DNA from: a virus
Length of the DNA: 27,387 nt
Direction: 5' to 3' (one strand)
IMG/VR virus record: IMGVR_UViG_3300005067_000025
Coordinates: 1 to 27,387 of that record
Notes under the pieces: model-generated
The model's database searches: none
Told to the model about the DNA's origin: nothing
What the model saw: only the letters and a program-made list of their open reading frames with translations
Translations under genes and position numbers: made by a program
Part shown: positions 18,277-27,251 of the stretch, piece by piece
Position numbering within the stretch: the first letter of the stretch is position 1
Layout: each line of letters starts with the position of its first letter

Positions 18277-18327
18277 CGTATGAGATTTACAGCGCTGTAA
18301 GTTTTACAGGGCTGTAAATCTCATACG
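18277..18327. promoter_or_regulatory. Nested dyads: tandem TTACAG-N2-CTGTAA operator candidate
   Basis: A perfect 17-base inverted repeat (18277-18293 and 18311-18327) surrounds two copies of TTACAG-N2-CTGTAA: 18287-18300 with centre CG, a perfect 14-base palindrome, and 18304-18317 with centre GG. Their centres are 17 bases apart. The element lies between the antirepressor terminator and gpW, about 36-86 bases before the gpW start. It reads like a binding site for a dimeric regulator acting on head-gene transcription, though it could also fold as RNA. Confidence 0.7.
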
Positions 18328-18337
18328 GAACAGGCAC

Positions 18338-18362
18338 AAAAAAAGGCGGACCGAAGTCCGCC
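18338..18362 (-). terminator. Rho-independent terminator after antirepressor gene
   Basis: On the minus strand GGCGGAC-TTCG-GTCCGCC forms a 7-base stem with a stable UUCG-type tetraloop, followed by seven T (18344-18338). It lies 43 bases after the antirepressor stop and should end that transcript before the head operon. Confidence 0.92.
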
Positions 18363-18404
18363 CCTTGTGCGTTGAAAGCCTTTTGCGGCAACGTCTTTCG
18401 CTGA

Positions 18405-19208
18405 TCAGCAATTATCGTGCAAAACGAGGTTGTAGAAAACCTTGTTCACCGGGGAGACGCGGACGATGCCCGGCACGCGGCGCAGGCTCGCCCCAAAGGC
18501 ATTGTGCGTGGGCACGTCGCGGCGGCGCAGGCCGCACTCCCCGAGGCACCAGTCCACGAACGCGGCATAGATGTCTTTGGCCTGGGTCTTGAGGTGGCGG
18601 GGCGCGGCGTTGGGGTCCACTTTGGTCACCCTGGCGCAGCGCTCCACGAATTCGCCTACCAGCGGCATGACCCCGTCCTGCTCCAGCTCGCGGCAATCGG
18701 AGATCACGGAATCCGGCGAAATCAGGCGGCAGAAGTGCGCGAAAAGCCGCGTAACCTGCTGCTCGTCCGCCTGCCCCGTGAGCTTGGCCGTTTGCACCGC
18801 CGCGTTCAGCGCCTGGGCGCGGATGGCGGGCTTGCGCGGATGGGGCGGCAACTCCATCGGGCTGGGCTGGCCAGCGGGAAAAGCGTAGCTCCCGGTCCGG
18901 CGGATCGAGGGCAGGACTTCGGAGGTCACCCACTTGCGGAAGCGCCGCGCCTCGGGCTTGCGGCTGGTAAAGATCAGCGCGTACAGGCCCGACTCGGAGA
19001 CGACGTTGGTTTCCCTGGTCCGGCCTATTGCGTCGGCAATCCCGACGCAATCCCTTTCATCCGCTTCGAGTCGCTGCACGGCGTCTCGTGCATTGCCAAC
19101 CTCCAGCACTCCGCACACGTCCTTGGCCACAAACCAAGGCTCCTGGTCGCGCAGCACAACGCGCACCGCATGGCCGTCAAAGTCAAAGGGGATCAAATCA
19201 GCAGACAT
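18405..19208 (-). CDS. ant: BRO-N antirepressor with helicase-type C-terminal module
   Basis: A 267-residue protein when started at ATG 19208 (MSADLIPFDFDGHAVRV), which overlaps the previous gene's end by 11 bases. Residues 5-105 form a BRO-N/Ant domain, with EPWFVAKDVCGVLEVGNARD (23-42), then SESGLYALIFTSRKPEARRF (71-90) and KWVTSEVLPSIRRTGSY. The last 60 residues (TQAKDIYAAFVDWC ... NKVFYNLVL) closely match the C-terminus of the phage helicase encoded at 25231-26910. BRO-N antirepressors disarm the prophage repressor or silence host functions on induction. The leader contains a C4-type antisense RNA, as for P1 ant. The gene ends at its own terminator. Confidence 0.87.
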   Translation of the reverse strand: MSADLIPFDFDGHAVRVVLRDQEPWFVAKDVCGVLEVGNARDAVQRLEADERDCVGIADAIGRTRETNVVSESGLYALIFTSRKPEARRFRKWVTSEVLPSIRRTGSYAFPAGQPSPMELPPHPRKPAIRAQALNAAVQTAKLTGQADEQQVTRLFAHFCRLISPDSVISDCRELEQDGVMPLVGEFVERCARVTKVDPNAAPRHLKTQAKDIYAAFVDWCLGECGLRRRDVPTHNAFGASLRRVPGIVRVSPVNKVFYNLVLHDNC

Positions 19209-19479
19209 GGCCCACCTCCGGCTCGGTAACCGGGGCCGCAGGGAGCGCGTCGCAGCGATCCAGTCCGGATTCCAGCGGCTCCAGCAGCGCGGCAGCCGCG
19301 TCCGCCTGCGTCTTGAGCAGGCTGGCCAGGCCCAGGAGCCGCGCGCTCTCCAGGGCAGGCCCGCTGACGCCCAATTCGAAAAGCAATCCGGCCAGGCCGC
19401 GCAGGCCGGATTCAACGGCACAGGCCTTGCTGTAAAGCGCGTTCAATTCGGTAAAGGTGAAGTTGATGCTGCGTTCCAT
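19198..19479 (-). CDS. Small helical protein upstream of antirepressor (icd position)
   Basis: A 93-residue protein, MERSINFTFTELNALYSKA, then Leu/Ala-rich helices with GLRGLAGLLFELG and LKTQADAAAALLEPL. A strong AGGAGG (19492-19487) precedes the ATG, and the stop overlaps the antirepressor start, so the two are co-translated. I do not recognise a family. In P1 the short icd gene lies in the same place between C4 RNA and ant, and its translation is needed for ant expression; by position this gene could play the same role, but no sequence similarity is claimed. Confidence 0.68.
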   Translation of the reverse strand: MERSINFTFTELNALYSKACAVESGLRGLAGLLFELGVSGPALESARLLGLASLLKTQADAAAALLEPLESGLDRCDALPAAPVTEPEVGHVC

Positions 19480-19536
19480 GGCGGAACCTCCTGTGATTTT
19501 TAGAATTGGCTGCTCTCATCAAAGAACAGCCGGGTG

Positions 19537-19557
19537 CTTCTAACCGTCACAGGGCGG
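19537..19557 (-). promoter_or_regulatory. Target of the C4-type antisense RNA in the ant leader
   Basis: On the minus strand this stretch (CCGCCCTGTGACGGTTAGAA at its core) is complementary to 19699-19678 of the same transcript, with pairing of about 5+5+7 bases around a small internal bulge. It also lies next to GCCGGGTG/CACCCGGC arms (19601-19594 and 19536-19529), which enclose it in an alternative stem. It sits about 45 bases before the ribosome site of the 93-residue ORF. Confidence 0.65.
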
Positions 19558-19645
19558 CTGGGTAGTTCCCCAAAGGGTCTTGTATTTCCCCAACACCCGG
19601 CGGAATTTTTGGTAGCCGAGCCGCTTTCCAAAGGGGCTGGAAAGC

Positions 19646-19712
19646 AAAAATCCCACGAAGACTGACGGGCGTGGGTGCCGCCTGTGATGGAGTTAGAAGC
19701 TCCTGATTTCTT
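19646..19712 (-). ncRNA. c4: C4-type antisense RNA candidate (P1/P7 immI type)
   Basis: The first part of the leader holds the segment 19699-19678 (CTTCTAACTCCATCACAGGC at its core), complementary to a target 120 bases further down the same transcript. It is followed by the hairpin CCCACG-12 nt-CGTGGG (19675-19652) and ATTTTT, a processing or termination-like end. In P1, P7 and related phages the C4 RNA is cut out of the ant transcript and pairs with sites before icd/ant, stopping antirepressor synthesis in the lysogen. Promoter, antisense, target, small ORF and antirepressor are here in the same order. The exact ends are estimates. Confidence 0.68.
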
Positions 19713-19739
19713 CTTGCCCAATTCGCGCCCGTGTGTCAA
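19711..19739 (-). promoter_or_regulatory. Promoter candidate for the C4/ant leader
   Basis: A perfect TTGACA (19739-19734) is followed after 17 bases by a weak -10 (CAAGAA, 19716-19711). The site points towards the C4 segment and is divergent from the plus-strand gene at 19792. The weak -10 leaves doubt. Confidence 0.45.
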
Positions 19740-19791
19740 GAGGTGGAAAATTTATTTGTTTGTTTGTACATAAAAAGAGTACGGGGACACC

Positions 19792-20490
19792 ATGGAACAT
19801 TTGATTTGGCCACTGTTGTTATTTTTTATGGCTTTCATGATCATACGCACATTTATACGGCTCTGCAAAACAGACGAAAAGCACACGGAAAAAAATCTAG
19901 TGAAGCGTGGCAAAAGCCGTTCCGAACGAATCGTTGATGAATATGAGGACGAATACGACGCGGAGTATGAGGAAATGCTTCGCCAAGACAAACTTGAGGA
20001 AGAACGTGAAGAGCAGGCCTGGAAAAACGAAGAGTTTGAAGAAGAAATTAAATACATTTTACAACGCAAGCCGACTGGAGCAGAACAATCAAACCTGAAA
20101 GCTTTTTTTGGGGGGGAGTGGTCTTGTATAAAGAACATCAATGCACTTAATTGCCACATAAAGAATGGAGGAAAGGCTTTCCGCGTGTCTCCTGCAGAAC
20201 ACAACTTCAATTCGCTACTCTTCCTTTTTCAAGTAGGGATTGTTTCCAGAGGCCTTTCAGTCCCTTTAGGGAAAAGAATGGAAGTTTTAAGCATGGAACA
20301 AATCCGGCAAATCGCAGATTCCCTTGGGGTCAAAAGAGCGCAAGGCAAACTTGCTTCGATTGACCGCATAATGAGTGTTGAAGCCGGCAAAATAGAATCG
20401 GTGTGGCCGACGGCAGTTCCTGTAGAGGAAATTTTTTATATTGACGCGACGGCCGCAAATGAAAAAGTCCTTCGGGCCGCTCAAGACTAG
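19792..20490 (+). CDS. Membrane-anchored unknown protein, moron candidate
   Basis: The only plus-strand gene of the window: 232 residues, and visibly AT-richer than its neighbours. It starts with a membrane helix (HLIWPLLLFFMAFMIIRTFI, residues 3-22), then a basic stretch, then a highly charged coiled coil rich in Asp/Glu/Arg (about 43-90). The C-terminal part contains a SAP-like helix-turn-helix-type motif (SMEQIRQIADSLGVKRAQGK, about 166-185). The stop is 3 bases from the end of the oppositely oriented Ogr-like gene. The upstream 50 bases are AT-rich and could hold a promoter divergent from the C4 promoter. Family not recognised. As an own-promoter gene in the reverse direction inside a late operon it fits a lysogen-expressed moron, for example for phage exclusion, but no function is shown. 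Confidence 0.75.
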   Translation: MEHLIWPLLLFFMAFMIIRTFIRLCKTDEKHTEKNLVKRGKSRSERIVDEYEDEYDAEYEEMLRQDKLEEEREEQAWKNEEFEEEIKYILQRKPTGAEQSNLKAFFGGEWSCIKNINALNCHIKNGGKAFRVSPAEHNFNSLLFLFQVGIVSRGLSVPLGKRMEVLSMEQIRQIADSLGVKRAQGKLASIDRIMSVEAGKIESVWPTAVPVEEIFYIDATAANEKVLRAAQD

Positions 20491-24870: not shown

Positions 24871-25247
24871 TGCCGCCCCCCCCTGCCGGAGGCATCAAGG
24901 CGGCACACAAGGGGAGCAAATCTCGAAAAGCAGGCCGCACAAAATAAAGAGGTCGAAGCTTCGATGTTATTAACGGGGAGGTCTTCTTGACTAACCAAGC
25001 GCGATGATTTAATTTTGTGTCTCAGCTTAGACAAGACGACCTTTTTCCAGCAAAAAACCCTCTTACTAAAAAAATATTCCTTTACCATTTTATCTTTTTC
25101 TCTACATACTTTCTTTCTTACAAAGGTATAAAGGTCTAAGAAGGTAAGGTAGAATAAAGGCAACCGTCCAAAATCACGTCCAAAAGAGAAAAGCAGAGCT
25201 CGCTTAGACTTCTCTTCGGAGCTTCGATCTTCAATACGGCAGATCAT
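24867..25247 (-). CDS. Uncertain 126-residue frame between helicase and primase
   Basis: From ATG 25247 a frame runs to TGA 24869-24867. Its start overlaps the helicase end and its stop overlaps the primase start as ATGA, as expected for a coupled gene. The product begins MICRIEDRSSEEKSKRALLF and is rich in Lys, Phe, Leu and Ser, with no family I know; composition is unlike its neighbours. The same stretch is AT-rich and holds AAGGT repeats, so it may be a non-coding origin region with an accidental open frame. I rate coding as less likely than not. Confidence 0.3.
   Translation of the reverse strand: MICRIEDRSSEEKSKRALLFSFGRDFGRLPLFYLTFLDLYTFVRKKVCREKDKMVKEYFFSKRVFCWKKVVLSKLRHKIKSSRLVSQEDLPVNNIEASTSLFCAACFSRFAPLVCRLDASGRGGRQ
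25123..25160. repeat. AAGGT iteron-like repeats in AT-rich region
   Basis: AAGGT occurs at 25123, 25131, 25141 and 25146, with a further AAGG at 25157. They lie in the AT-rich 24960-25170 gap between helicase and primase genes, beside long A/T-rich tracts. The arrangement resembles origin iterons, but no initiator-binding evidence exists. Confidence 0.45.
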
Positions 25248-26910
25248 GACCCTGCCCCTCGGTCTGCCACTCTGCGCGAATGATGACATTGTAAAAAACC
25301 TTGTTTTTCGGCGGGACCTTGACGAGTTCAGTGCGGTTGGTGAAGTCTTTGCCCAGCGCATTTTGGCTCATGATTTTTGATTCAGGGATGCTTTTCTCCT
25401 CTTTGCACCAGCGCTGAAAGACCTGGTAAATGTCCTTCATCTGTGTGCGCGTCCAATCTGTAGCCGCTGTCGGCGTCGCATCGGTGACCTCCAGACACTG
25501 CTCCAGGAACTCTCCCACGAAATCGTTCGAAGCCATGTAGTCCTCGGTGGTCGCGAGCACCGAAGCCGGCGGCGTCAGGTCCATGGTCTTGAGAAATTCG
25601 ACAGCTCCCCGCACAGCCCAGGCCAGTATCCCGGAAAGGTGTTCTGGCTGGTGGAGCTTGTGCTCCAGCTGCGGGTCCATGGGATAGACACGCGCCTCAG
25701 GGTCGGCCTCGGCTCCCTGCCGGAACGTGCAGCCGAACTTGATGATCCGCAGCCGCTCCTGGAAAGCTCTGTCGTCTCCGGAGACAGACGGGACTCTGTT
25801 CGTCACGAACAGCATTTTGAATTTCGGGATGTATTCCGTGATATTGTTCGAGTAGAGCCCCCGGCAGGTGATGGGGTCACCTCCGGAGAGGGCCTTGATT
25901 GCCCCCTCGGAGAAGCGCGCGCGCTTCGGCGCTTCGGAGGCGCAAGCAAGCCGTGTATGTTCCAGGGACACCAGGATTTGATCCGGCTTGTCAGAGGACT
26001 GAAGGGCTTTTTCGTCGAGCAGAAATTTGGGGGGTATCTGCTGGAAGTACGTGCCCATGATCTGGCGAATGGTGCGAAAGAAAACGCCTTTGCCATTGCG
26101 CCCCTGTGGACCCCAAAAGCAGTAAAATTCCTGGACGTTTGAGAGTCCGGTTATCCAGTACCCCGTGCATCGCTGGACGTAGTCGATGAGCTCCTGGTCT
26201 CCGGCAAACACCTGCTGCAAGAACGTCTCCCACAGATCGCTCTCTGCCTGGAGTTTGTCCCATAGAATGCCCGAAGCGCGGTTGATGTAGTCAAGAGGGT
26301 TTGCCGGGAGGGCCTTGCCAGTGCGCAAATCGATTACCGCATTGGCGCAGGCAAAAAGGTACGGGTCGGCGTTCCACTCCGTACCCAAAATCCCCAGGTA
26401 GCCAGGGTTGGCCACGCTCGCCAGATCAAGCACTTTTCCAATTCTACCAGGGTCTTTCAGTTCTTTTGCCCGACGATCCCATGCGGCCTGCTGCCGCAGC
26501 AAGGGATCAAGCATCTCCCGCTTTGCAGTTTTGGTTTCCGCCGCGAGATATTCAGCAGATTTCTGCATTTCTTTAGCGGCCTGTCCGTAGAACCTCGCCT
26601 GCTGGCGGTAGTCTTCGGCGATATACGTCAGGCTGTGACGATGCGTCCGTCCCATATCTTCACCCCAATGGGTCTCCTTGAACCGGAACCACCTCCCCTG
26701 GGTGTTGTCAAAAATCAGCTTGCCGCCGAACCGCTCGGAAAATCGCCGAGCGTCGCCCATGTGGTTGTCGTCGTAGTCCGCCTTGAGCTGGTCAATGTAT
26801 CCCGTTGGCGTCGTTGTTTCAGACGGCGGTTCCTCTTTTGATTTTTGATACTGCTCTTGCTCCGTGCGCACGGCCTCGTCCACTTGCCGCTTGATTTCTT
26901 CCTTACTCAT
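25231..26910 (-). CDS. Replicative SF3 helicase, P4/D5 primase-helicase family
   Basis: I use ATG 26910 (MSKEEIKRQVDEAV), 559 residues, because GGGAGG precedes it and it overlaps the prior frame as ATGA; the open frame begins at an in-frame GTG inside that ribosome site. A D5_N-type region (WNADPYLFACANAVIDLRTG, about 179-198) leads into the SF3 ATPase: Walker A GPQGRNGKG (about 267-275), LVSLEHTRLACASE (about 313-326) and the motif C segment FKMLFVTNRVPS (about 364-375). The last 60 residues (TQMKDIYQVFQRWC ... NKVFYNVII) match the antirepressor C-terminus. It unwinds the phage origin. The primase domain seen in P4 alpha is absent here and encoded separately. Confidence 0.93.
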   Translation of the reverse strand: MSKEEIKRQVDEAVRTEQEQYQKSKEEPPSETTTPTGYIDQLKADYDDNHMGDARRFSERFGGKLIFDNTQGRWFRFKETHWGEDMGRTHRHSLTYIAEDYRQQARFYGQAAKEMQKSAEYLAAETKTAKREMLDPLLRQQAAWDRRAKELKDPGRIGKVLDLASVANPGYLGILGTEWNADPYLFACANAVIDLRTGKALPANPLDYINRASGILWDKLQAESDLWETFLQQVFAGDQELIDYVQRCTGYWITGLSNVQEFYCFWGPQGRNGKGVFFRTIRQIMGTYFQQIPPKFLLDEKALQSSDKPDQILVSLEHTRLACASEAPKRARFSEGAIKALSGGDPITCRGLYSNNITEYIPKFKMLFVTNRVPSVSGDDRAFQERLRIIKFGCTFRQGAEADPEARVYPMDPQLEHKLHQPEHLSGILAWAVRGAVEFLKTMDLTPPASVLATTEDYMASNDFVGEFLEQCLEVTDATPTAATDWTRTQMKDIYQVFQRWCKEEKSIPESKIMSQNALGKDFTNRTELVKVPPKNKVFYNVIIRAEWQTEGQGHDLPY

Positions 26911-27251
26911 GCCGCGCACCTCCCGAGTTCACGATCAAGATCATGCGTACAGGTGCTGCCGATCAGCGCACGCATTGTAAAATTGTAAAAATCATTTTGC
27001 ATACCACTCGCGCGAAACTTGCGGTCGAATGGTCCCGTATTAGGAAAAGCTGCGGGAGGACCCAACGGCACTACGGGACTGATTGTTTTCGCCTTAGACC
27101 TAATCGAAAGCTTTCTTATAAAGGGGGAAAGAGGGGAGGACGCAGTCGCGGCGTGCCCCTTGGTGGAAGCGGCCGCAGAAGCGGCCGCATTGACGACCAG
27201 ATGCTGGTCAGGAAGCGCAAAGAAAAGCGCAAAGAGCTCGCGTGAATCCAT
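26907..27251 (-). CDS. Small unknown protein upstream of helicase
   Basis: A 114-residue frame starting at ATG 27251 (MDSRELFALFFALPDQHLVV), with an Ala/Ser-rich low-complexity stretch (NAAASAAAST) and a more protein-like end (NDFYNFTMRALIGSTC). The stop overlaps the helicase start as ATGA. No ribosome site is visible before ATG 27251, so the true start may be further in. It would be the first gene of the early transcript after the attachment site. Family not recognised; coding is likely because of the coupled end, but not certain. Confidence 0.42.
   Translation of the reverse strand: MDSRELFALFFALPDQHLVVNAAASAAASTKGHAATASSPLSPFIRKLSIRSKAKTISPVVPLGPPAAFPNTGPFDRKFRASGMQNDFYNFTMRALIGSTCTHDLDRELGRCAA

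Follow-up and report, generated by a model that had tools for sequence, protein, structure and literature searches.

We propose that the leader of a BRO-N antirepressor gene (ant) in the viral record IMGVR_UViG_3300005067_000025 is an antisense RNA switch of the P1 immI type acting on the antirepressor, with an antisense RNA of the sRNA-Xcc1 family, a reading that we regard as very probable. The sequence itself shows the layout of the leader, the fold of its RNA, a pair of complementary targets that covary with it, and the antirepressor gene. The window analysed is the whole stretch of 27,387 nucleotides, and on its minus strand the P1 immI layout is present together with covarying antisense complementarity to two sites, one upstream (A1) and one at the ribosome-binding site (A2). 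The original prediction of a P1 immI-type switch controlling the antirepressor is thereby strongly supported, by layout and by covariation.

The antisense RNA lies in the middle of the leader (19602-19520, minus strand) and matches the Rfam model RF02221 (sRNA-Xcc1) over its full length with 51.9 bits (E 6.6e-8), just below the gathering threshold of 53; the nearest homologous leader, L012, has the same layout and reaches 63.7 bits, above the family threshold. The window RNA has the Xcc1 core ATACAAnACCC..GGGGAA in hairpin 1 (here ATACAAGACCC...GGGGAA), and its two hairpins are set within a closing stem that pairs 19601-19593 with 19537-19529. Recognition sequences are found in the loop of hairpin 2 (b', CCTGTGA, about 19553-19547) and in the linker before the closing stem (a', GTTAGAAGC, 19544-19536). 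Among the matches listed, 176 elements show a covarying closing stem with several pair types per position and 99.2% paired cells, a value biased upward because these elements were picked for a good stem. RNAalifold on a MAFFT alignment of 46 elements recovered only the inner 3 bp, since variable spacers and the alignment displaced the stem arms, and explicit arm parsing was used instead. An RNase-P-like RCC 3' of the closing stem is seen in 95 of the 176 elements among the matches listed; it is absent in the window, and RNase P processing was therefore dropped from the evidence.

Searches with the models for C4 (RF01695) and c4-a1b1 (RF03163) against positions 18300-20100, and for isrK (RF01394) against the window leader, gave no match at E values up to 10, which rules out these names for the window RNA. 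The expectation of a C4-type antisense RNA thus holds for the mechanism, which would be of the P1/C4 type, and fails for the Rfam family, the RNA matching RF02221. Using blastn, the window leader found no match in known phages, and an Xcc1 consensus query matched 40 phages. The sRNA-Xcc1 has been observed in Xanthomonas as an 88 nt RNA (PMC2996969), where it is described as an integron-borne, trans-acting sRNA that is activated by HrpG/HrpX and reported 5' of symE in integron cassettes (PMC12444791); it is also expressed in Xylella, in which Rfam places C4, isrK and Xcc1 near each other (PMC12189769). The window RNA matches this sRNA in sequence and structure along its full length and differs from it in context; no paper linking Xcc1 to an antirepressor was found in the openly searchable literature.

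A1 (GGAGCTTCTAACTCCATCACAGG, 19703-19681, minus strand) is complementary to the recognition region of the Xcc1 RNA and covaries with it across 154 loci among the matches listed. It folds into a GGAG/CTCC hairpin with the a-box in the loop and the b-box next to it, and by analogy corresponds to a1b1 of P1, in an IsrK-like form. As predicted, a TTGACA box precedes it (19739-19734, minus strand), the putative -35 box of the switch promoter, accompanied by a weak -10 box; among the matches listed, 104 of 154 Xcc1 loci have TTGAC 5' of A1 (expected 21), as do 60 of 94 loci of a further RNA class described below (class 3; expected 11). The predicted hairpin with a T-run is likewise found 3' of A1, as an intrinsic terminator at 19675-19646 (minus strand) in which the hairpin CCCACG-CCCGTCAGTCTT-CGTGGG (19675-19652) is followed by an A and then TTTTT (19650-19646). 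Comparable terminators occur at the same position after A1 in 97 of 154 Xcc1 loci among the matches listed, against 3.7 in shuffles. The terminator loop CCCGTCAG (window 19669-19658) is conserved in both RNA classes. CCGTCAG recurs in the upstream regions of 36 of 154 Xcc1 loci (expected 1.8) and 16 of 94 class-3 loci (expected 1.1) among the matches listed.

A2 (TTCTAAAAATCACAGGAGG, 19505-19487, minus strand), overlooked in the original prediction, repeats the A1 sequence and spans the Shine-Dalgarno box that serves the small leader ORF. The Xcc1 RNA is thus complementary both to A1 and to the ribosome-binding site, and A2 would be the equivalent of a2b2 in P1. In the window A1 reads GCTTCTAAC..CACAGG, the RNA CCTGTG..GTTAGAAGC and A2 TTCTAA..CACAGG; the corresponding triplet of L012 is GCTCGTAAC..CACAGG, CCTGTG..GTTACGAGC and TCGTAA..CACAGG. 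The two complementary segments that had been predicted are real and can now be assigned, 19703-19681 being A1 and 19557-19536 the 3' recognition part (hairpin-2 loop and linker) of the Xcc1 RNA; their alignment score was reached by none of 5000 dinucleotide shuffles, and that of A2 with the same region by 5 of 5000. The duplex energies are -36.6 kcal/mol for A1 and -20.6 kcal/mol for A2.

Covariation of the segments in relatives, to which the original prediction had looked for confirmation, is overwhelming in Xcc1 and in third-core elements. The Xcc1 core was scanned in IMG/VR and in GTDB genomes, and for the elements among the matches listed the complementarity of own and swapped partners was compared. 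Across 189 distinct elements among these matches, own partners stood out upstream (z = 46) and downstream (z = 23; 0 of 5000), and did so when partners were swapped within relatives only (z 32 and 19). Unrestricted RNAduplex energies for A2 were discarded, as they chose GC-rich off-target stretches, the window included, and the test was redone on the region from 30 nt before the Shine-Dalgarno box through the start codon, with a stretch within the ORF as control. For 154 Xcc1 elements among the matches listed, A1 then scored 22.4 with its own against 12.8 with swapped partners (z 44) and A2 14.5 against 10.2 (z 27), with 0 of 5000 shuffles in both cases, and the own-partner excess of the in-ORF control was not significant (z 1.8). 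The Xcc1 RNA lies at a median of 52 nt from the start codon in these elements, and among the matches listed the A1 match is everywhere stronger than the A2 match.

The small ORF and the antirepressor with its own terminator were found in the order predicted. The ORF (19479-19198, minus strand; 93 aa) occupies the position of icd or orf45, has AGGAGG 7 nt 5' of its ATG at 19479, overlaps the start of ant by 11 nt and matched nothing in Pfam or PHROG. Ant (19208-18405, minus strand, ATG at 19208; 267 aa) is assigned to Bro-N by Pfam (PF02498, E 4e-24, 85.5 bits against a cut-off of 25.6) and to the anti-repressor Ant by PHROG (E 1.4e-47), and is followed by the intrinsic terminator GGCGGAC-TTCG-GTCCGCC-T7 (18362-18338, minus strand). 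The C-terminal part of Ant (KTQAKDIYAAFVDWC...NKVFYN) resembles that of another protein encoded in the window, a D5-like primase-helicase (25231-26919, minus strand), and phrog_1156 matches both proteins, Ant weakly (E 0.021).

In P1, according to established knowledge together with the notes of record AF234172, the middle RNA C4 represses by masking the ribosome-binding site of a small ORF that is coupled to ant. The annotation of that record (promoter, a1, b1, C4, a2, b2, icd, ant1) has the same order as the window, with a promoter, an a1b1 element, an antisense RNA, an a2b2 element at the ribosome-binding site, a small ORF and ant. The topology of the C4 model (a closing stem, two hairpins of which the second bears the recognition loop, and a single-stranded linker) is the same as that of Xcc1, with recognition in both systems residing in the loop of hairpin 2 and the linker. 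The systems differ in the core of the RNA, which is C4 in P1/P7 immI and of the Xcc1 type in the window; the window Ant is a BRO-N protein whose C-terminal part is D5-like. A second parallel is the IsrK-orf45-anrP region of Gifsy-1, where a short upstream RNA also ends at a terminator, read-through enters a small ORF to which an antirepressor is coupled, and complementary sequence lies downstream; it is distinguished by RF01394, absent from the window. This model matches the a1b1 region of P1 too. IsrK activates in trans by a mechanism that was established experimentally (PMC4825925). The counterpart of the middle RNA in Gifsy-1 is STnc1160, to which the repressor role is not assigned.

By analogy with P1 C4 and Gifsy-1 IsrK we infer transcription, processing, repression at A2, decoy action of A1 and translational coupling. 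A single minus-strand transcript from near 19705 would comprise A1, the terminator, the Xcc1 RNA, A2 with the ribosome-binding site, the small ORF and ant. The Xcc1 segment would fold into its closed stem and two hairpins and be freed as a stable species some 83 nt long. In the lysogen, pairing of A2 with the loop of hairpin 2 and the linker would make the small ORF's ribosome-binding site inaccessible; with ant translationally coupled to this ORF, the antirepressor would be off. A1 would be an additional target copy with stronger pairing which, as the short terminated RNA or in cis, competes for the Xcc1 RNA and leads to derepression, as IsrK does. The short upstream RNA is thus likely a decoy and an IsrK-like activator, a role that suits the stronger duplex of A1; conversely, given the weaker pairing of A2, repression there would hinge on free Xcc1 RNA that A1 has not captured.

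The stronger A1 match, seen always in the elements among the matches listed, could also be accommodated by attenuation alone, in the style of the P4 CI RNA: the Xcc1 RNA, by pairing with A1 while the leader is still being transcribed, would favour the terminator (or Rho), repression would be transcriptional and A2 secondary. In the short A1 RNA an alternative GGCG/CGCC fold replaces the terminator stem, and this possible antiterminator would be disrupted by binding of Xcc1. The symE loci of Xanthomonas fit such a scheme as well, for the A1-Xcc1 match is retained in L204, L226, L257, L273 and L296 and inspection of the start site of these symE loci revealed no A2; part of the Xcc1 family must accordingly act via A1 alone. 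P4 resembles the window in having a processed middle RNA with complementary sites on both sides (seqA/seqC), and structural homology of P4 CI/seqA to IsrK has been noted (PMC4825925); P4 differs in that replication genes are controlled by premature termination and no antirepressor ribosome-binding site is involved. Against attenuation as the sole mechanism, A2 covaries in both RNA classes and lies exactly on the Shine-Dalgarno sequence, which attenuation alone does not require. We therefore consider this explanation unlikely, with a contribution of P4-like attenuation to the P1-type switch being possible.

Even less probable is the assignment made in the original prediction, in which a short upstream RNA of 60-80 nt (19646-19712; about 19705-19646 in our delineation) is the C4-like repressor and 19557-19537 its mRNA target. 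The two segments are indeed complementary and a terminator does follow the upstream one. However, 19557-19537 sits within a conserved self-folding RNA (RF02221), some 50 nt away from the start codon and off the ribosome-binding site, and the ribosome-binding site holds a copy of the upstream segment that is unable to pair with the upstream RNA. The antisense RNA is moreover central in the P1 annotation, and the antisense element here is the middle one (19602-19520). As the upstream segment corresponds to a1b1/IsrK, which activates in Gifsy-1, the sign of the proposed repressor is reversed. That the leader is an ordinary one, lacking a regulatory RNA and with a repeat due to chance, is a reading to which the slightly sub-threshold Rfam score of the window alone might point; it is already refuted by the comparative data, given the window A1 score (0 of 5000 shuffles) and the covariation in 154 and 86 elements of the two classes among the matches listed.

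The nearest homologues of Ant (L002-L008 and L010) share this layout, including the small ORF, and carry a middle RNA with another core. From this we conclude, at the level of sequence comparison, that RNA cores are swapped between cassettes under a constant layout. A third core beside Xcc1 and C4 has the consensus ATGTCCARGGCnnnnGCCTAAA (L002, L003, L005-L008, L010 and L327-L406; e.g., L002:2602-2675) and is common in IMG/VR, with at least 94 loci. The third-core loci tested against Rfam had no family match at E 0.1, and others gave only cross-hits of 28 bits to Xcc1. The triple match is present here too, with z = 32 for A1, 23 for A2 and 0.1 for the control in 86 elements among the matches listed. 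In L009 (2400-2670) the core GTGTCCCGGATGCCGTGAGGCCCGGGGA... is flanked by a1 and a2 copies ahead of a BRO-N antirepressor, and this RNA apparently represents a fourth core.

The genes behind Xcc1 belong mostly to unrelated antirepressor families. Among the matches listed, 115 such genes gave Pfam matches to Bro-N (20), Rha (13), P22_AR_C (13), KilA-N (9), AntA (8), ORF6N (8), P22_AR_N (7) and SymE (5), where one protein may match more than one family. Xcc1 lies immediately 5' of ant in the annotated phages Rac-SA53, Aaphi23, S1249, IFTN1 and 3927AP1, is followed by a small ORF and a DNA-binding protein in VPBES, and by a KilA-N protein in 4316. All of these phages show a clear A1 match; for A2 this holds in Rac-SA53, VPBES, 3927AP1 and IFTN1, whereas the others have a weaker match or one that could not be discerned.

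The position of the block between terminase/ogr and gpW-portal, originally singled out as unusual, is real but no exception. L002 has the cassette between terminase and portal, and L005 has it ahead of the portal; in Aaphi23 it is flanked by Q and holin, in VPBES and Mcat15 it is surrounded by tail genes, and in 4316 it precedes the tail spike. A special status of the late-operon site was rejected since late-gene placement recurs in relatives and named phages. The cassette carries its own promoter-like box and terminators.

On balance, we favour the view that phage-immunity RNAs form one large superfamily with sRNA-Xcc1, the ATGTCCARGGCnnnnGCCTAAA class and C4 as interchangeable cores, in which a hypervariable loop and linker would set the type of superinfection immunity before many unrelated antirepressor genes, and that the module has also been recruited elsewhere, e.g., for the SymE toxin of Xanthomonas. 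The window would be one member; the wider point suggested by these sequences is that Xcc1 represents a C4-type antirepressor RNA of hypervariable specificity and that it has a sister class which is un-catalogued. To our knowledge, sRNA-Xcc1 has been a widespread family with a name and no agreed function. Our proposal offers (i) a testable function for an orphan RNA family that is annotated across many bacterial genomes and has hitherto been treated as a virulence sRNA, and (ii) a starting hypothesis for its position before symE in integron cassettes. It also implies that antirepressors are under P1-type antisense control far more often than would be judged from the C4 family. As the recognition sequences are nearly unique per element (distinct in 161 of 176 Xcc1 elements among the matches listed), they may mark prophage immunity groups that could be read from sequence.

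Two further observations concern copy number and the surroundings of the cassette. Xcc1 is present in 13 copies in the genome of L204 and in 6 in that of L257. The segment of the window that separates the ant terminator from the gpW-like gene contains a perfect 16-bp inverted repeat (GTATGAGATTTACAGC / GCTGTAAATCTCATAC, 18278-18326), which is possibly an operator or a recombination site.
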